DNA of 64,000 nt from Candidatus Chloroploca asiatica (GTDB lineage: Bacteria > Chloroflexota > Chloroflexia > Chloroflexales > Chloroflexaceae): positions 62,001 through 126,000 of the forward strand of contig NZ_LYXE01000188.1 in the NCBI RefSeq assembly GCF_002532075.1, read 5' to 3'. Positions within the stretch are counted from its first letter, which is position 1. Every line of letters starts with the position of its first letter. The translations under genes were made by a program, and so were the position numbers. Positions 5,808 through 57,417 of this stretch are shown in pieces. The notes under the pieces were generated by a model. It made no database searches. It was not told the DNA's origin and saw only the letters and a list, made by a program, of their open reading frames with translations.

Positions 5808-5860
5808 CGTTTGTTCACGCACCAAAGGCCAGCTTTGCTGGCCTTTGGTGCGAACAAACG
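5808..5860. terminator. Long bidirectional hairpin between metK and the FAH gene
   Basis: Arms 5808-5833 and 5837-5860 pair almost perfectly around the 3-base loop TTT, with a two-base bulge near 5817. The tip reads GGCCAGC-TTT-GCTGGCC. It sits between convergent genes ending at 5797 and 5866, so it can terminate both. There is no strong T-run. It belongs to the shared-tip family discussed in the findings. Confidence 0.85.
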
Positions 5861-6748: not shown

Positions 6749-7873
6749 CTAGGGCATTATCACATCGGTAATTGGCATAGGGGTAAAGACCAGGGCAAAG
6801 ACCACGAGACCAAGCAGGGCCAGGAGTCGCCATGATCCCTGCAGGGGCGTCACCTCATTGAGCAGCGGGCTACGATTCTGCCCAAGCAGAGCCACAATCA
6901 CCGCCCAGAGAAACCAGCCACTCCAGAGAAATCCGAGGGCGAGCAGAACCACGGCAACCACCATACTCATGATCTGAGCTGCCTTGGGACCAAAGAGAGC
7001 AAAGAAGATATGCCCGCCATCGAGTTGACCAGCCGGCAAGAGATTAAGCCCGGTGACCAGCAGCCCCGCCCAGCCAGCCAGGGCGACCGGATGCATAAAG
7101 ACATCATACCCGCCGTCGGGTAAGAAGCGTCCGAAGACCAGCAGTTTCAGCCCGGCATAGAGCAACGAATTACCCTCGGTAAAAAAGATCATGTCAGGCA
7201 ACTGGGCCTGCATGTCGGCAAGATTGCGTACCTCAGAGAGCGCAAGCCCGATGATCAGCACAGGAATGGCCACCACAAGCCCGGCCAGGGGGCCTGCAAT
7301 GGCAATGCCCAGGAGGGCACGTCGGTTGGGAACGGGCTCTTTGATCGAAATAAACGCGCCCATTGTCCCGAGCAAAAAGAGTGGCATCGGGATAAAGAAG
7401 GGATAGCTCACGGCCACACCTTCGCGGCGAGCCATCAGATAATGGCCAAGCTCGTGGGCCAGCAGAATCCCGAGCAGTGAGGCACTGAACGCGAGCCCGT
7501 GGCCCACGTTAAAAAAGAAGGTACCTGTTGCCCAATCGACATCTTGCCCGCCCACATAAAACGTCGAGGCAAGCGTCAAAGCAAAGAGCAACAACGCCAG
7601 CCAGAGGCGTGACGGGCTGGGCGGGGCGAGCGCCGGCAAAACCAGCAAGGCCACGCGATCACCCTCTTGTTGCAACAGCCCAAGCAGTCCCATAGCACGC
7701 AGGCGAGGACTGATCTGATCGTAGGCCATTTGCGCTTCAACCTTCAGGCGGCCCAGAAAACGGGGTGATTCAAAATCACCGCGTCGCACCATTTCAATAT
7801 CATCAATGAGCATGACCTCGGCCACCGTTGCACGTAGTGCTTCAGGAACCGGGCTCGACGTGTAGTGATCCAT
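6749..7873 (-). CDS. Site-2 protease family (M50) membrane metalloprotease
   Basis: A 374-residue polytopic membrane protein. An N-terminal soluble stretch of about 90 residues precedes the membrane part. The zinc motif HELGH lies near residues 138-142 within LAHELGHYLMARREGV, and the third ligand motif LDGGH near residue 283 in LLPAGQLDGGHIFF. Site-2 proteases cut substrates inside the membrane, often releasing anti-sigma factors or membrane-bound regulators. The large N-terminal region and layout resemble the EGY/S2P-like group of phototrophs, but that is only a resemblance. No partner regulator is adjacent. The GTG/ATG choice is clear: ATG at 7873. Confidence 0.9.
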   Translation of the reverse strand: MDHYTSSPVPEALRATVAEVMLIDDIEMVRRGDFESPRFLGRLKVEAQMAYDQISPRLRAMGLLGLLQQEGDRVALLVLPALAPPSPSRLWLALLLFALTLASTFYVGGQDVDWATGTFFFNVGHGLAFSASLLGILLAHELGHYLMARREGVAVSYPFFIPMPLFLLGTMGAFISIKEPVPNRRALLGIAIAGPLAGLVVAIPVLIIGLALSEVRNLADMQAQLPDMIFFTEGNSLLYAGLKLLVFGRFLPDGGYDVFMHPVALAGWAGLLVTGLNLLPAGQLDGGHIFFALFGPKAAQIMSMVVAVVLLALGFLWSGWFLWAVIVALLGQNRSPLLNEVTPLQGSWRLLALLGLVVFALVFTPMPITDVIMP

Positions 7874-7902
7874 ACTTCCTCGTGTGCAGATGTTTAACGG
7901 GT

Positions 7903-7911
7903 ACTATACCA
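7903..7911 (-). promoter_or_regulatory. Extended -10 promoter candidate for the site-2 protease
   Basis: Read on the minus strand this is TGGTATAGT, an extended -10 element, 30 bases upstream of the start codon at 7873. No convincing -35 hexamer is seen. The same TGG-TATA-nT form recurs at other promoters in this window. Confidence 0.5.
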
Positions 7912-7920
7912 CGATCAGGT

Positions 7921-8103
7921 TCAGGGCTGCCGCCCTAAAACCAAGAACTGGCGTAAAGACTGGCGAAGGATGTCGTTTGCCTTAGACCCAATACCATGCA
8001 AAGAAGGCGGTTTTTTGACGCAAAGGCGCAAAGGCGCAAAGGCGCAACGTTTTGAATGGCCCATGCCTGGGTTCCCGCACACGCGGGAACCCAGGCATGG
8101 GCC
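7921..8103. repeat. Intergenic repeat block: short palindrome, 8-bp repeat, long hairpin
   Basis: The gap between two divergent genes holds three structures. A short palindrome CAGGGC-TGCC-GCCCT lies at 7922-7936. An 8-bp tandem repeat GCAAAGGC, 3.4 copies plus a partial, runs 8020-8048. A perfect 21-bp hairpin has arms 8058-8078 and 8083-8103 around ACAC, containing the widely seen TGGGTTCCCGC sequence. No gene is supported in this stretch. The hairpin is upstream of both flanking genes, so it is not a simple terminator for either. Confidence 0.8.
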
Positions 8104-15331: not shown

Positions 15332-15392
15332 GAAGAATTCCTGTGACGAACAAAGCCAGCGAAGCTGGCTTTGTTCGTCACAGGAATTCTTC
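15332..15392. terminator. Perfect 29-bp hairpin between convergent genes
   Basis: Arms 15332-15360 and 15364-15392 are perfectly complementary over 29 bp with a GAA loop; the tip is AAGCCAGC-GAA-GCTGGCTT. It starts 4 bp after the amidase stop and ends 15 bp before the stop of the opposing gene. It can serve both directions and is the longest perfect stem in the window. Confidence 0.88.
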
Positions 15393-20590: not shown

Positions 20591-20666
20591 TCAGGGCTAA
20601 CGCCCTACAAACCCGTCTGTACGCTGAAAAAAGCCAGCATTGCTGGCTTTTTTCAGCGCACAGACG
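20591..20666. repeat. Composite intergenic element: short palindrome plus long hairpin
   Basis: A short palindrome AGGGC-TAAC-GCCCT (20593-20606) is followed by a 25-bp hairpin with arms 20614-20638 and 20642-20666, loop ATT, one mismatch, tip AAGCCAGC-ATT-GCTGGCTT. On the minus strand it lies between the DUF11 gene and the acetyltransferase start and may end DUF11 transcription. Confidence 0.75.
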
Positions 20667-40923: not shown

Positions 40924-40956
40924 ACGAAAACGACCAGCTTCGCTGGTCGTTTTCGT
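40924..40956. terminator. Hairpin between convergent UPF0104 gene and secF
   Basis: Perfect 15-bp arms 40924-40938 and 40942-40956, loop TTC, tip GACCAGC-TTC-GCTGGTC. It lies between stops at 40921 and 40968 and fits a bidirectional terminator. Member of the shared-tip family. Confidence 0.85.
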
Positions 40957-44364: not shown

Positions 44365-45057
44365 TTGTGGTCACAAACGTTGGATACGACCTTTCACGCG
44401 AAACCTGACAGTGAGTTGCTTTACAATCTAGCCTTGCAACTTGGCTCAATTCAAGAACTGAGTGAAGCAGCACAGGTAACCCTGGAAACTTTTGCCCGAT
44501 GTACGCAGGCAAAGAGTGGTTTATTGCTCATGCCTGAGGTCGTGCCACTCAGCGTCGGGATGTCGGCGCCAACTGCCGACGAAGTTGTGGCGATCTATGC
44601 CTTGCCAGCCGTGCAGTCTGCCATGCAACTCGTTGGCATTACCGTGCTGCCGGGGGGCCTGGTGCCTCTGACCGGTAGCATCCATATTGCCGGGATTTTA
44701 CCGACAAGCCACGGGAAACCCGGGCTTCTCCTACTTGGCTGTGATCCACCCTTAAACCATTCTGCCCGTCGCACCCTCGCAGCAGCAATCCCCCTCCTCC
44801 GCCAGACTTTTGATCGCCTCCGCCAGCAACAATACGGTCAACAAACACGATCCACCACCGAGGCAACCCTCAGACATAACCTCATCCGGCTTCAGGCCAC
44901 CCTCGAAGAGAGCCACGCACGTCTGTTGCACGCAGCGAGCATCCTGTACAACGACGCTATGCCCGAGCCTGACGTAACCTTTGCGCTGGCACAAAGCCTG
45001 GAACAACTACAACAGGCCCTCGATCTTTGCACAAAAATAGAGGCGCACGAAGCGTGA
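44365..45057 (+). CDS. GAF-like domain protein of unknown function
   Basis: A 230-residue soluble protein. Residues about 20-150 have the pattern of a degenerate GAF domain (NLALQLGSIQELSEAAQVTLETFARCTQAKSGLLLM start like GAF helices and first strand). The C-terminal third is helical and rich in Gln/Arg/Leu, possibly coiled coil (LIRLQATLEESHARLLHAASILYND). No output domain is seen. The start is uncertain: TTG 44365 or TTG 44380; no ATG is available near the N-terminus. The promoter just upstream and the uninterrupted frame support it as real. Confidence 0.6.
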   Translation: MWSQTLDTTFHAKPDSELLYNLALQLGSIQELSEAAQVTLETFARCTQAKSGLLLMPEVVPLSVGMSAPTADEVVAIYALPAVQSAMQLVGITVLPGGLVPLTGSIHIAGILPTSHGKPGLLLLGCDPPLNHSARRTLAAAIPLLRQTFDRLRQQQYGQQTRSTTEATLRHNLIRLQATLEESHARLLHAASILYNDAMPEPDVTFALAQSLEQLQQALDLCTKIEAHEA

Positions 45058-45116: not shown

Positions 45117-45229
45117 CCGGCTTCAGCCGGCTCATGGTTTTTAAGAATGACATCAGGTAGTGCCGACTTCAGTCGGCTTCCGGCTCAGCCGACTGAAGTC
45201 GGCACTACCATATACCCGAAGCCGGCACT
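45117..45229. repeat. Cluster of CCGRCTTCAGYCGG palindromic repeats
   Basis: Three related elements. CCGGCTTCAGCCGG lies at 45117-45130. A perfect 22-bp hairpin has arms 45157-45178 and 45187-45208 built on GTGCCGACTTCAGTCGG. A half element GAAGCCGGCACTCC ends near 45229. They lie between a plus-strand gene ending at 45057 and a minus-strand gene ending at 45263. No coding sequence is seen. Confidence 0.8.
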
Positions 45230-45262: not shown

Positions 45263-46534
45263 TCAGACAGCACCGCCAGGGGCCGCTATACGCTGTGAAC
45301 CACGACGCATTGCCCGCATCAACAATGACAATCCGGCGAGGATGCCAACAATGCCGTATTCGAGAATTGGTACGCGCAGAATGTCAGGCAAGCGATGCAT
45401 TTCGCGCCGTAAACCATACCAGGCAAGGGCTGAGGCTGCATACGTCGAACCGATCCCAAGACGAGCCTCTTTGCTCAAGCCAAGACCGTGCATCTGCGCC
45501 AACACAAACATACCAAGAAAACCAAAGGTGAACATGCCCTCAAAACCGCTGCCTTTCTGCAAGGTTGTGATCACAGCATGCGGCAAGACCAGCATCTCGA
45601 GCGCCAATGTCCAGCGCGGTTCACGGTGCGCATTGGTAAAGAGCAAAGAGGATTGCACAAAGAGAAGCATCATATGGTAGAGCCCACCAAGATGCGAGGG
45701 CAGTGGCTCCATCGGATGGTACCAGAAGGTATAGACGGTCGCCCAGCTAAAGATATACCCGTGGTAACGGCGCACAAAGCGAACCAGTTCAGGAGGCAAA
45801 CCCGGACGCTTCAGGCCCATGATCAAACCACGGCGGGGCGTCTCCATCGCCAGAATCAGCATCAGCATAAAGGCTGCCGAGCCAAGTGACGTCCCTTCGG
45901 GCACATCGACCGCGAGTCCATCATAATACCGGCGTGTCTGCGCATAGTGCAACCCGACCCCAGCAGCATTGACAGCAAGCGCCGTCCAATTTAGTGGTCG
46001 CATCCCATCATCATAGGATGGGCGAGCGCGTTGGGCCGCATAAATGCATCCCCAGACGGCCAGTTGATGCAACAGATAGCCACTCCAGGCGGTGATCCGG
46101 GCAGCGGTATACGGTCCTTCAGAGATCCAGCGATAATGACCAGGTTTGCCATTGTAGGGGGCATAGCTAATCGGCGCACGTCCCCCGAGGGCAACGGCAC
46201 CAACAACGGCGCCACAAACGGCTGCCGCCGGAACCAGCAGATCGCGTGCATCGGGGGCGGCAGGAGGGCCATCGCGCTGCTCTACCCAGGTAACAAAGCG
46301 TTGTAGAACCACCCCGGTCACGGCTGCGCCTGCCGCCGCCAGCAGGCCAGTGCCAACCGCACGCAACGGCTGCTCACGCGGCGAGGCAAGGGCAGCACAG
46401 GCGGCCCCAGCGGCACTCACGAGCGCAAGACCAACCCCGGGCTTGCGCCCACGCAACACATCAAGCCAGTAGACGGACGCCATCGGATTGAAGAGCGCAG
46501 CTCCAGCGAGAGCATAGTTTCGTGATGGATCCAT
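45263..46534 (-). CDS. Unrecognised histidine-rich polytopic membrane protein next to bchL
   Basis: A 423-residue membrane protein I cannot assign to a family. About 11-12 hydrophobic segments are visible. The first four are Ala/Gly/Val-rich. The second half has many His in or beside helices: GYLLHQLAVWG, GLHYAQTRRYY, RRYHGYIFSW, FWYHPMEP, LPSHLGGLYHMM, NAHREPRW, VLPHAV and AQMHGLGL. This resembles a heme- or metal-binding membrane enzyme in general character only. ATG 46534 was chosen since an AAAGGT ribosome site is upstream. It follows bchL in the same direction, separated by a long hairpin, so it may be a regulated end of the bch operon. Confidence 0.75.
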   Translation of the reverse strand: MDPSRNYALAGAALFNPMASVYWLDVLRGRKPGVGLALVSAAGAACAALASPREQPLRAVGTGLLAAAGAAVTGVVLQRFVTWVEQRDGPPAAPDARDLLVPAAAVCGAVVGAVALGGRAPISYAPYNGKPGHYRWISEGPYTAARITAWSGYLLHQLAVWGCIYAAQRARPSYDDGMRPLNWTALAVNAAGVGLHYAQTRRYYDGLAVDVPEGTSLGSAAFMLMLILAMETPRRGLIMGLKRPGLPPELVRFVRRYHGYIFSWATVYTFWYHPMEPLPSHLGGLYHMMLLFVQSSLLFTNAHREPRWTLALEMLVLPHAVITTLQKGSGFEGMFTFGFLGMFVLAQMHGLGLSKEARLGIGSTYAASALAWYGLRREMHRLPDILRVPILEYGIVGILAGLSLLMRAMRRGSQRIAAPGGAV

Positions 46535-46584: not shown

Positions 46585-46637
46585 GTTTTTGCGAGCGAAG
46601 GCGGCCTGCGTAGCAGACCGCCTTCGCTCACAAAAAC
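46585..46637. terminator. 25-bp hairpin between bchL and the membrane protein gene
   Basis: Arms 46585-46609 and 46613-46637, loop GTA, two mismatches. On the minus strand it begins 6 bases after the bchL stop. It may end or weaken transcription of the bch operon, or protect the bchL mRNA 3' end. Confidence 0.75.
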
Positions 46638-46642
46638 ATAAT

Positions 46643-47461
46643 CTACTTCCATCCGCCCACCACATCAAAGATCGCACGGTCGTGCATTGGATTCGGGATC
46701 GTCGATTCGGGTTGACCAAGGAGATATTCGGCCATCTCATTGAAAGGACGGAGGCAATCCTCTTTGCCTTCACCTTCCATGTCAAAGAGGGTCTTGCCTG
46801 CCAGGCGCGAGCGACGGATCAAGTCGTGATAGGGAACCCGCCCGATAATCTTGGTACCAACGGTCTCAACAAACTGCTCAAGGAGACCCGTTCCTCCAAA
46901 ATCAGGATCGACCCGATTCGCAATCAAGCCCGCCATCCGCACTTTATGGCGTTGACTCTTCTGCTGGATGGCGAGGCAGAGGCGATTGGCGGCAAAGATG
47001 CTATCAAAATCATTGCAGGCAATGATAATGCCGTAATCGGCATAGTTGAGCGGTGCCGAAAAGCCACCACAGACCACATCCCCAAGCACATCAAAGAGAA
47101 TCACATCATACTTATGATAGAGACCAAACTCTTTGAGCAACTTGACCGTCTCGCCAACCACATAGCCCCCACAGCCACTGCCGGCAGGCGGGCCACCCGC
47201 TTCGAGCGTATCAACCCCGGCAAAACCGGTCAGAATCACATCCTCGCGGGCGACATCCTCAATATGGAAATCAACCTCTTCGAGCACATCAATCACGGTC
47301 GGCTGGAGCAAGCCGGTCAACGGGAAGGTACTATCGTGTTTCGGGTCACAGCCAATCTGCAACACCTTCGCCCCTTTGAGGGCCATTGCCGCCGAGAGAT
47401 TGGCACTGGTCGTTGATTTGCCAATTCCGCCTTTGCCATAGACTGCAAGAATCAGGGACAT
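46643..47461 (-). CDS. bchL: Light-independent protochlorophyllide reductase, iron-sulfur ATP-binding subunit
   Basis: The NifH-like electron donor of dark-operative protochlorophyllide reductase; a homodimer that passes electrons to BchN-BchB with ATP. The Walker A loop is [15 protein letters not shown]; the cluster ligands are in GSGCGGYV and [11 protein letters not shown]; the switch region is [10 protein letters not shown]. Length 272 residues, typical. It starts 18 bases after the bciB-like stop and belongs to one transcript with bchN, bchB and the bciB-like gene. Confidence 0.97.
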
Positions 47462-47479: not shown

Positions 47480-48760
47480 TCAAGCCTCGCTTCTGGTCGC
47501 TGCCTCGGCGGGGACACGTGCAAGGGGGCGACCGAACTCACGGGCATAGACATCGGCGGTATAGGCGAGGGCACGATAGACGTACCCGGGCACAATACGC
47601 TGTTCGTGGCGGGGGAACTGGTCACGGACATAGACGAGATTGCGCAGCAGTTTCTGTTCGATCACACTGCGGGCAAACTCAACCCCTTTGGGACCTTTCG
47701 AGCGTTGGAGCCAGGCGACAAATTTGCGCACCGGCAACGGGGGCCGTTTGCGGGGCTTGCGCAACATCCCCACATAGGCCTGAATGCCGGCCCGACGGTC
47801 GCCACCCTCGGTACGCTGACCGAGTTCAAGTGAGGGACGGATCAACTCAAAGAGCTCTTCGCCGCGCTCGTTACGGACAAACATCCATTGCCAGCGTTGA
47901 TCGGGGGGCAAGGGAGCCCCGAGATAGCCCACCGTGAGATCGGCCAGACCATTTTGATAATCGAAACAACTGAGGCAGGCAGCCGGGAAGACCCCGCGCT
48001 CACCGCCGAGGGCACTGACATCAAGATCAACAAAATTGATCGTCTCGGTATGACCATCTTCATGGCGCATCCAGACACGAAAATCCTGCATAAACTCGTG
48101 ATGCACAATCGTCTCGGGCGACTTCGAGGCAACCTTCAAGAAGCGCTGGAGATCGGGGTACGATGTATTATCGGTACAGGGCAACCCGATCACATACAAC
48201 TGCTCGAGGCCGAGTTCCGGCTCAAGGGCACGCAGCGCATGCACCTGGCAACCGGTACCAATGAAGGCAAGGCGCTTGAGGCCAGCGGCCCGAACCTCGT
48301 CGAGCACCTCAAGATTCGGCGAGAGGCAGGGCTTATTACCTGCGCTCGCCCGCACCTCTTCAGGTGTACGCGCCAAGAAGGGCAGCGGAGCCCAGCGGGT
48401 ACCGGGGGCGGCTTTCGTCGTAATGACGCCCTCGACCAGACCCCGCTCGAGCAACAAAGCAGCAAGCGACGTGATAATCCCACTCCACTGCGCTTCGAGA
48501 TTGGGCGTGCGCATCCGGGCGATATGGATGGCCCGATGCACCCCAAAGAGCAACTCATCGCCATCGCGACGGTTGCGCCCGTGGAACTGACGTTCAAACT
48601 CTTCGTGCTTGTTGTTGACAAAGACACACGAAGCGGCCATCATCGGACGCAATTCACCGCCACAGACCCCACAATCACTACACAGCTTCGGGCGACCTTT
48701 GAACCGCTCGGCCTGCGAAAGCAGGGTAATCTCGTGAAGCGGTCGGGCTGTCATGGTCAT
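47480..48760 (-). CDS. bciB: Ferredoxin-dependent divinyl chlorophyllide 8-vinyl reductase-like (BciB/FrhB family)
   Basis: A 426-residue flavin and iron-sulfur protein of the coenzyme F420 hydrogenase beta-subunit family. The N-terminal KLCSDCGVCGG plus a following Cys, and the later AACLSCFDYQNGLADLTVG, provide two cluster sites; GTGCQVHALR and IGLPCTDN are typical of BciB and the plant 7-hydroxymethyl-chlorophyll reductase. BciB reduces the C8 vinyl group of divinyl (proto)chlorophyllide. Its place inside the bchN-B-L operon supports that role. HCAR-like activity cannot be excluded by sequence alone. Confidence 0.85.
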   Translation of the reverse strand: MTMTARPLHEITLLSQAERFKGRPKLCSDCGVCGGELRPMMAASCVFVNNKHEEFERQFHGRNRRDGDELLFGVHRAIHIARMRTPNLEAQWSGIITSLAALLLERGLVEGVITTKAAPGTRWAPLPFLARTPEEVRASAGNKPCLSPNLEVLDEVRAAGLKRLAFIGTGCQVHALRALEPELGLEQLYVIGLPCTDNTSYPDLQRFLKVASKSPETIVHHEFMQDFRVWMRHEDGHTETINFVDLDVSALGGERGVFPAACLSCFDYQNGLADLTVGYLGAPLPPDQRWQWMFVRNERGEELFELIRPSLELGQRTEGGDRRAGIQAYVGMLRKPRKRPPLPVRKFVAWLQRSKGPKGVEFARSVIEQKLLRNLVYVRDQFPRHEQRIVPGYVYRALAYTADVYAREFGRPLARVPAEAATRSEA

Positions 48761-48773
48761 ACTTCACCTGAAT

Positions 48774-50468
48774 CTAGGCACCGAGATGCTCTTTAGCAGC
48801 CAGCAGCACCTCGGCGGTAATCGTCGCGATTCCATGTTCACGGGCATACTTCTCGATATTGCCCCGTGCGCGACCACGGACAAAGAAGGGGATCTTCTTG
48901 AGCATCGCTTCGCCATCAGCGGTCCAGACTGGATTCACGACAGGCGCAGGGGTAGCCTGACCAGATGTCGGAGCACCTGCCGACGAAGCAACCCCATTGG
49001 ACGGTTGTCCTTCCGGCGCATGGCCGTTCGTTGGCTTGACCACATCAGCGACCACAGCAACTGGTGCCACAGCGGCCTTGCCATTGCTCACAAGCACCGG
49101 ATCAGCCGACGGAACAGAGGGGGACTCAACGAGCTCGAGCCCGGCATCACCAAACATATCAATGAGATGCTTCTCCATACCAAGCGTACAGGTCGTCGAG
49201 ACCTCATCGGCAATCACATCGGCCCCATCAAAACCGAGGAATGGGCGATAGGCAAGCAAGTGATTTTCGATATGGGTTGGCGACGAAATAACCATCACAT
49301 TCAGATCGTACCGACGACCGGTATGCCGTTCCATCTGCGTCCCACAGACGAGTTCCGGGCGCAACTGACCGATCCGGTCAGCCACCTGTTGAAACTCATC
49401 GGTGGCGAGGAAATCCGCATCGCTGACATAGCCCTGGAGTTGCGACCGCACCCAGTCAGCCTCCTTGACGAGATAGGTACCGGCACCGGCAATTGGCATA
49501 CCCAGTTCATCAGCAAGGAACTTGGTGACACCGACGGTATGGGTTGCATCGCCAAAGACAAACGCCTTCTTCCCCGAAAAGCTCTCCATATCGGCCGTAC
49601 GGGCAAACCAGGGCACATTCGAAGGAGCCGACATACCATCAAGCGAAAACTCGGTGAGCGGGGGAAGCTTGAGCGGTGATGGCGGCACGGCAAGGCGTGC
49701 GCCAACCGTATTGAGTTGCTCGACCACCGCATCGAGCCAGCGCAGCGTTGGTTGAACCCCGATCGGCGCATCACAGAGCGCCGCGGTACCAAACTGCGCC
49801 TCGAGATATTCGGCGGCGAGCCGACCGAGCTCGCGGTAGGGCGCAATGGTGAGCCAAGCCGCTGGCAAGCGACGGAGATCATCAACACTGGCACCCCATG
49901 GGGCCACCACATTAACGGCCACCCCGAGTGTCTTGAAGATTCGGCGTAGACTGATCAGATCGTGGCGAGCGTGAAAGCCGAGTGATGAAGGCCCAAGGAT
50001 ATTCACACTCGGCATCGGGGTCAGGGGTTGAGAGGTCGCATACTTCTTCACCAACTCGGTAAAGAGCCCCTCGGCGGCGGCGGTCTCTTGCATCCGATAG
50101 GGATTCGCATCATAGACCATCACCTCGCAAGCGAGCCCCGACTGATGCGCAGCAATCTCCAGATTTTCTTGCAGCAAAATCGTCGAGCACGAAGCAACCA
50201 CCACAATCAGATCGGGATGCTGCGCAGCCTCGACCTGGCGGAGCGTCTCGGGAAGGCGAAGCGTCCCACGGGCGAGATCGGTACCGCTCACCACACTCGT
50301 CGTCATCGCCGGAAACCCAGGCGTCCGTTCGAGCATCGTAAAGATCGTATTCACATACCCATCACCTTGAGGGGCATGAAAGACAGCGTGGGTCTTGCGC
50401 ATCGAGTTCATCACTCGAGCGACGCCGTGATGGGCCGTACCTTCGTACATCCAATAAGCCAGTCGCAT
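48774..50468 (-). CDS. bchB: Light-independent protochlorophyllide reductase subunit B
   Basis: A 564-residue NifK-like catalytic subunit. It begins MRLAYWMYEGTAHHGVARV; VVVASCSTILLQENLE holds a Cys of the NB cluster; KAFVFGDATHTVGVTKFL and SSPTHIENHLL are typical. The C-terminal PCP_red-like helical domain (IPFFVRGRARGNIEKYAREHGIATITAEVL) is joined by a linker of about 60 residues rich in Ala, Pro, Val, Ser and Thr (around residues 460-520). Such a linker is variable in the family. It lies 23 bases after bchN. Confidence 0.97.
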   Translation of the reverse strand: MRLAYWMYEGTAHHGVARVMNSMRKTHAVFHAPQGDGYVNTIFTMLERTPGFPAMTTSVVSGTDLARGTLRLPETLRQVEAAQHPDLIVVVASCSTILLQENLEIAAHQSGLACEVMVYDANPYRMQETAAAEGLFTELVKKYATSQPLTPMPSVNILGPSSLGFHARHDLISLRRIFKTLGVAVNVVAPWGASVDDLRRLPAAWLTIAPYRELGRLAAEYLEAQFGTAALCDAPIGVQPTLRWLDAVVEQLNTVGARLAVPPSPLKLPPLTEFSLDGMSAPSNVPWFARTADMESFSGKKAFVFGDATHTVGVTKFLADELGMPIAGAGTYLVKEADWVRSQLQGYVSDADFLATDEFQQVADRIGQLRPELVCGTQMERHTGRRYDLNVMVISSPTHIENHLLAYRPFLGFDGADVIADEVSTTCTLGMEKHLIDMFGDAGLELVESPSVPSADPVLVSNGKAAVAPVAVVADVVKPTNGHAPEGQPSNGVASSAGAPTSGQATPAPVVNPVWTADGEAMLKKIPFFVRGRARGNIEKYAREHGIATITAEVLLAAKEHLGA

Positions 50469-50491: not shown

Positions 50492-51772
50492 TCACCCGCG
50501 GGTAAGCGGAATGATCTCAGGGGCACCCGGCATCACACCTGCCATCCAGACCGGATCATTGCCAAGGGGGTCAAGACGAGCGTGACGGCGGAGAGCTCGG
50601 GTAAAGAGGCTCACGAGGGTATTGACGCCGGCCCAGCCATGAATAGGGGAAAAGATAAACTCGGTACCCCATTTCGCAACCACCCCGTGACCAATGAGTG
50701 GATTAGCGGTAATAATATTGGAGATCACGAGATCGGGCTGTTCTTCGGCGATACTGCGCAACTGGCGCTCGAAGTTGGCCTGTTCAACCAGGCGTACCCC
50801 ATCGAGCAAGGCCAGCTCGCGGGCGTGGAAGCGGCGGTTAATATAAGGCGTCGAACACTCAAGCACCTCGGCACCAGCGGCACGAATAAAGCGGGCCAGG
50901 GGCAATTCAAGCAGCGTATCGGCGGACAGAAAGACCTTCTTGCCCTTGAGCAGATCGGTATGCTCTTTGATCCGCGCCCAGGACGCCGCTTCACGCTCAC
51001 TCAGATCAACCTTCAGATCAAAATGCGCCGCAAGGTCTTCCCAGAACGCACGACAGCCATCGGGTCCAAAGGGAAAGAGCGACGACATCACCGTCGCGCC
51101 ACGATCGTTGGTCAGTTGATTCGCCACCTTGGCGAGGAAAGGTTGCAGAGGTGCAATGATTGTCCCCGGGCCAATCGGCGGCAGTTCGTGGAAATGATTC
51201 GCGGGAAGAAAACCAGCGACGGGAATACCCAGGCGCGAGGCCTCAAAGAGAAAATCATCGGCAATCGCATCATTGACCGAACCGAGGAAGACAACCCGTT
51301 TATCATCGGGTGGAGCCTCGGGGCAGAACGGAATCAACGCCTGCAACACCGAATCTTCGCTTTGGGAGAAGGTAAAATCGAGGCCAGAAGCAGGCACAAA
51401 GAGCACCGGCACCTCGGGGGTACTGACTGATTGCGCGAGGCCCTCAAACTCAACCTTCATCACTTCGGGGGTACAGGAGGAGAGCAAGAAGATCACAGAG
51501 GGGTGGTGTTCACGGGTAATCTCGGCGATCTGGTCAGCAATGGCAGGCTGAGCCGAAGAGAGATCAGCTTCTTCAAGCAACGAAATGGCGAAGCGTGGGC
51601 GGGCAAAAATCATCACGCCCATCGTATTTTGGAGCAAATGGGCGCAGGTATGGGTGCCAAGAATGAGAAAGAAGCTATCCTTGATCTTCTGATACAACCA
51701 ACCAACACTGACCAGGCCACAAAACGAATGATAGATCCCATCTTCGCGTGTGAACTGTGCCTTTGGGGGCAT
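50492..51772 (-). CDS. bchN: Light-independent protochlorophyllide reductase subunit N
   Basis: A 426-residue NifD-like catalytic subunit that binds protochlorophyllide with BchB. Cluster ligands are in [27 protein letters not shown] and [14 protein letters not shown] 51772 was chosen ([12 protein letters not shown]) with an AAGGAG ribosome site upstream; a longer frame reaches into the promoter. It is first in the bch operon; the candidate promoter is at 51850-51858. Confidence 0.97.
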
Positions 51773-51849
51773 AGGGGGGCTCCTTGCCGCTACATGGAGG
51801 CCCAAGCGGGCAATGTAGTTTACAGTGCGTACTACGATCAACGGGGGCT

Positions 51850-57386: not shown

Positions 57387-57417
57387 GCAAAAAAGCCAGC
57401 ATAGCTGGCTTTTTTGC
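57387..57417. terminator. Hairpin between convergent kinase and doxX genes
   Basis: Perfect 14-bp arms 57387-57400 and 57404-57417, loop ATA, tip AAGCCAGC-ATA-GCTGGCTT, with A- and T-runs that give a terminator in both directions. Confidence 0.88.

Follow-up and report, generated by a model that had tools for sequence, protein, structure and literature searches.

A histidine-rich membrane protein downstream of bchL in Candidatus Chloroploca asiatica is the extended member of an undescribed family spread over several phyla

The locus and its hairpins

The window analysed here is a stretch of 64,000 nucleotides from Candidatus Chloroploca asiatica. On its minus strand lie bchN, bchB, a BciB-type FrhB-like gene and bchL (assigned with NCBIfam), and downstream of them, in the same direction, an open frame of 423 residues (Table 1), which confirms the arrangement given in the initial annotation, whose description needed correction only in the strand and in minor counts. 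Of 61 related genomes, 20 have the gene conserved. The protein shares 96% identity with those of two further Candidatus Chloroploca genomes, and the substitutions are mostly synonymous (third codon positions), in the N-terminal part and in the core alike. A literature search for the gene in Chloroploca or Chloroflexus returned nothing.

Table 1. Positions in the window of the gene, its parts and the neighbouring features.
Feature	Positions	Strand	Basis or remark
Gene under study (423 aa), encoding the long form of an undescribed polytopic, His-rich membrane protein family	45263..46534	-	open frame from ATG; AF2 model
N-terminal extension, residues ~1-95, three helices	46250..46534	-	seen only in the Chloroflexaceae long form
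Family core, residues ~120-410, common to the short form of non-phototrophs	45305..46177	-	
Stretch with seven invariant His (156, 196, 258, 273, 281, 303, 319)	45578..46069	-	alignment
25-bp hairpin between bchL and the gene	46585..46637	-	
23-bp inverted repeat just past the gene's stop, ahead of the convergent gene 44365-45057	45156..45209	.	
bchL	46643..47461	-	TIGR01281
bciB-like (FrhB-type) gene	47480..48760	-	NCBIfam
bchB	48774..50468	-	TIGR01278
bchN	50492..51841	-	TIGR01279

The gap between bchL and the gene measures 108 bases and contains a 25-bp hairpin of -58.8 kcal/mol (z -7.6), and because of this strong hairpin, co-transcription of the gene with bchL is not assured. Two sister Chloroploca genomes also have a strong hairpin there, each with a sequence of its own (L028, about 7896-7951; L022, about 7760-7815), the structure being kept in the three genomes while the sequence changes. 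The hairpin was also considered as a repeat element, which was rejected, as its exact arms are unique in the genome.

The convergent gene on the plus strand has no NCBIfam match and is poorly conserved (33% in G014), while in Khr17 (L022) it is matched by two separate pieces, so that the frame may be broken there. In the window as a whole there are 13 perfect inverted repeats whose arms reach at least 14 bp (e.g., 5818-5852, 15332-15392, 20622-20658, 40924-40956 and 57387-57417), several of which have a common core, CCAGC-nnn-GCTGG, with differing outer stems, resembling a hairpin family with a fixed tip and free stems.

A ten-helix core with seven invariant histidines

The AlphaFold2 model of the window protein (pLDDT 88) contains 13 helices of at least 15 residues, and not the 11-12 membrane segments first counted; the short form was modelled with a pLDDT of 92. 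The family core consists of ten helices, to which the long form adds three at the N-terminus, and among the 61 related genomes this extension was seen only in the Chloroflexaceae long form.

The seven histidines denoted in Table 1 are invariant in 52/52 aligned diverse sequences, including some with as little as 36% identity to the window protein, and follow each other at spacings of 40, 62, 15, 8, 22 and 16 residues. Glu231, Glu313, Asp205, Gln199, Gln294, Gln347, Arg234 and Arg235 are invariant in the same 52 sequences, His349 is kept in 75% of them, and His287 is specific to the long form, with Tyr at this position in all short forms. The motifs FWYHPMEP, NAHREP and QMHGL, named in the initial annotation, are all present, while its figure of about ten histidines in the second half was too high, the count being eight in residues 212-423 and 11 in residues 120-423, with seven of the latter invariant. 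There is no invariant Lys anywhere in the 52-sequence alignment, as a microbial rhodopsin would need in its last core helix, and the HxxxH and HxxHH boxes of membrane di-iron desaturases and hydroxylases are absent from the invariant His pattern.

Lys plus Arg amount to 3.5, 4.9 and 2.1 in loops A-B, C-D and E-F, and to 0.3, 0.1 and 0.4 in loops B-C, D-E and F-G. Basic residues in alternate loops make a clean positive-inside pattern, which puts the FWYHPMEP and YDGLA loops outside, and by this rule His196, His273 and His281 lie at the outer face, His156, His258 and His319 in mid-membrane and His303 at the inner face. Such an invariant pattern, with several histidines within helices, would fit a bound cofactor, and the early suggestion of a membrane haem or metal enzyme is strengthened by the seven invariant histidines, which include those of the named motifs.

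That the protein matches no family was upheld, as nothing rose above threshold in Pfam, NCBIfam or the PDB sequences, and no Pfam or NCBIfam profile, including those of cytochrome b561 and di-haem cytochrome b, matched among 52-58 family members. Fold searches of the PDB with the long- and short-form models, and of viral proteins with the short-form model, gave no significant match (best E 0.3, best Z 6.6), which does not in itself prove a novel fold; no relatives were found in viral contigs. The least weak fold hints, CcmF and Dcytb, are both haem proteins, yet they lie within noise: CcmF, the top Foldseek match, has an E of 0.32, below significance, and di-haem Dcytb reaches Z 5.2 (rmsd 4.0, 145 of 225 residues aligned), within the background of helical membrane proteins. 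Both are similar to the family in their His-bearing transmembrane helices and in a weak resemblance of fold, but there is no sequence match, and seven conserved histidines stand against four.

For the N-terminal extension, a CPP1-like domain (chaperone-like protein of POR1, PF11833) came up with E 0.0083 on the N-terminal fragment, which looked striking beside protochlorophyllide reductase. It was rejected, with 16.2 bits against a cut-off of 28.4, because in a control search the hydrophobic part of the profile scored similarly in 38 of 61 genomes and in the controls.

Relatives outside phototrophs and their neighbourhoods

The initial annotation asked whether orthologs are limited to phototrophic Chloroflexota; they are not, the family being widespread in non-phototrophs. 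Core relatives of about 330-350 residues, with 36-50% identity, occur in genomes of the non-phototrophic family f3, in the actinobacteria Lentzea, Pseudonocardia, Saccharopolyspora and Prauserella, among Anaerolineae and Caldilineae (in many of them), and in alpha-, gamma- and deltaproteobacterial MAGs. One scan yielded 328 confirmed stretches of the family, and a profile search of 301 Chloroflexota genomes found it in 29. In the non-phototrophic Herpetosiphon-type family (f3), seven of nine genomes carry the short form and none carries bchL. The family is undescribed, without a name in Pfam or NCBIfam, and spread over several phyla. In the tree, the long forms of Chloroflexaceae stand apart as a clade with full support and a long branch (1.7 changes per column). 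The short forms of the same order are not their sister group and cluster instead with those of actinobacteria.

Outside phototrophs, two settings recur around the family gene. In the first, a [2Fe-2S] gene and an IorB-like gene for a large molybdenum subunit directly adjoin it (15 loci). The pair immediately precedes it in a soil Chloroflexi MAG, in marine Anaerolineales and in Acidiferrobacteraceae, is divergent from it in Lentzea and Prauserella, and is also found beside it in G009 (L118). A check on 14 freshly fetched regions added G004 (L162) and G188 (L164). On the family tree this context requires at least five changes, and against a background of about 1.1 members of the molybdenum-subunit family per Mb, four hits in about 35 lineages within 6 kb give P ~1e-4, a rough value with the lineages counted by eye. 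Direct adjacency to both genes in independent lineages, as expected of an electron partner, was thus found, and for the short form only; the pair is absent beside the long form of the window. In the sequences read, the IorB-like large subunits have twin-arginine leaders (TRRGFLIG, SRRTLLRG), and beside the adjacent two-subunit IorAB-type hydroxylase there is no FAD or cytochrome gene. In two genomes of the Chloroflexaceae-family group, G009 (L118 1840-5843) and G004 (L162 1740-5656), a short form divergent from the IorAB-type pair replaces the long form.

In the second setting, seen in Anaerolineae and Caldilineae, the gene is accompanied by genes for CarH-type regulators, photolyase, CrtI-like, lycopene-cyclase-domain and TIGR01777 proteins and MenA, a context that requires at least nine changes on the tree. 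A looser further setting consists of SDR genes with TetR or MarR regulators.

An IorAB-like deoxyribose dehydrogenase of Pseudomonas simiae is encoded with a membrane-anchored cytochrome c, its proposed electron acceptor (PMC6365646). The gene of the present family also adjoins [2Fe-2S] and IorB-like genes, and its product would likewise accept electrons from an exported dehydrogenase that has no flavin or cytochrome subunit of its own; it is, however, not a cytochrome c, being an integral ten-helix protein without detectable homology. Here the gene occupies the place of the cytochrome c beside the IorAB-type enzyme, and most simply we read the protein as a possible haem or metal electron carrier. 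To hypothesize from sequence and context, the invariant histidines of the ten-helix core may ligate haem b or metal ions, and the core may carry electrons through the membrane, linking an outer-face oxidoreductase with the quinone pool, the partner in non-phototrophs being the adjacent Tat-exported two-subunit IorAB-type molybdenum hydroxylase. We favour this reading tentatively, with the cofactor, the passage of electrons and the quinone step all inferred. Against it, there is no significant sequence or fold match to any haem protein, many members stand in other contexts without an IorAB neighbour, the long form has none adjoining, and the invariant histidines are also compatible with a membrane oxygenase.

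The latter, rated nearly as likely given that the second setting includes carotenoid and quinone genes, would be a possible metal-dependent oxygenase or oxidase acting on a lipid-soluble substrate (carotenoid, quinone, polyprenol or fatty acyl chain) with iron on the invariant histidines, its products being oxidised further by the neighbouring IorAB, SDR or CrtI-like enzymes. The recurrence of the light and carotenoid clusters speaks for it, as does a Caldilineaceae MAG frame (L078 7821-9791, 657 codons) in which a family member runs in-frame into MenA, either as a fusion or through a lost stop. Membrane di-iron oxygenases and other His-rich membrane enzymes (FA_hydroxylase, desaturase, Brp/Blh, NnrU/Z-ISO) share with the family the many conserved histidines, the polytopic build and the company of light and carotenoid genes; the lack of their sequence motifs, His boxes included, and of any Pfam match to these groups argues against membership. 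UfaO (DUF1365), of the light- and singlet-oxygen-linked furan fatty acid pathway, is a photo-oxidative stress cluster protein that proved to be an oxygenase (PMC7380195). The likeness, a previously uncharacterised protein from such a cluster, is one of analogy only, and identity with UfaO, prompted by the light-stress neighbours, was rejected, since DUF1365 is a different family.

Relation to bacteriochlorophyll synthesis

It seems improbable that the protein serves dark protochlorophyllide reduction or bacteriochlorophyll synthesis as a dedicated helper, enzyme or sensor. Its place directly after bchL does recur in Chloroploca, G014 and G031, and all ten genomes that carry the extended long form have bchL, a point in favour of the initial annotation. 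Among 34 genomes of the window's family with bchL (scored as a match over the cut-off), however, ten have the long form, one has the short form and 23 have neither, and 11 of these 23 are at least 97% complete. We conclude that close relatives can do without the gene in dark protochlorophyllide reduction and bacteriochlorophyll synthesis. One of the 23 is G020, of the same genus as G031, with which it shares the order secD, dsbA, bchL, bciB, bchB, bchN: its block dsbA-bchL-bciB-bchB-bchN-CoA-transferase is identical, and the gene is missing there and genome-wide. Chloroflexus has bchN-bchB-bciB-bchL without the gene, its copy lying at a distance of about 65 kb from bchL in G029 and of 51 kb in G033; orthologs thus stay beside bchL in Chloroploca, G014 and G031 and not in Chloroflexus.

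An accessory factor of DPOR or bacteriochlorophyll synthesis would be expected alongside the pathway in close relatives and in phototrophs only. Neither was found, given the 23 of 34 genomes and the G020 block on one side, and the f3 genomes with the actinobacterial, Anaerolineae and proteobacterial relatives on the other. The strong hairpin between the gene and bchL is a further point against such a helper. The link of the gene to bchL is a matter of position, not of pathway, and the roles first offered (a pigment-synthesis step, a pigment carrier or a sensor for BchL) are largely refuted, as relatives are common in non-phototrophs, far from bch genes.

As separate observations from these genomes, genes resembling hemE, hemL and hemF, identified by eye, are located about 6 kb ahead of the long-form gene of Chloroflexus G029 (L114 465-3825), with others between, and G037 (L020, family f2), without bchL, has a decayed short-form copy with stop codons.

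A transporter of pigment, precursor or lipid would suit a polytopic membrane protein with conserved charged residues; we hold it unlikely too, as no known transporter family or fold matches the gene product and seven invariant histidines, several within helices, would not be usual in a carrier. A membrane sensor of light, oxygen or redox state is suggested by the CarH, MarR and TetR regulators nearby, and is very improbable in view of the missing output domain, the lack of an invariant Lys for retinal and the mostly enzymatic neighbours.

The protein probably acts in a general way in the membrane, in electron transfer or as an enzyme, and not as a pigment-synthesis step. A false lead in bacteriochlorophyll synthesis is hereby removed and replaced by an unnamed multi-phylum family whose His pattern is very strict and whose confidently predicted structure had no counterpart among the solved ones searched. 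The long form, a variant with three extra N-terminal helices, may have gained a partner specific to phototrophs. It is conceivable, if somewhat doubtful, that the family is an unrecognised class of haem or metal membrane quinone reductases (or oxygenases), with a fold absent from the PDB, serving exported IorAB hydroxylases and light-stress clusters across phyla, to which the phototrophic Chloroflexaceae would have added a three-helix domain for their own use. If electron transfer is indeed its role, the family would supply the missing step from exported IorAB-type molybdenum hydroxylases to the respiratory chain.
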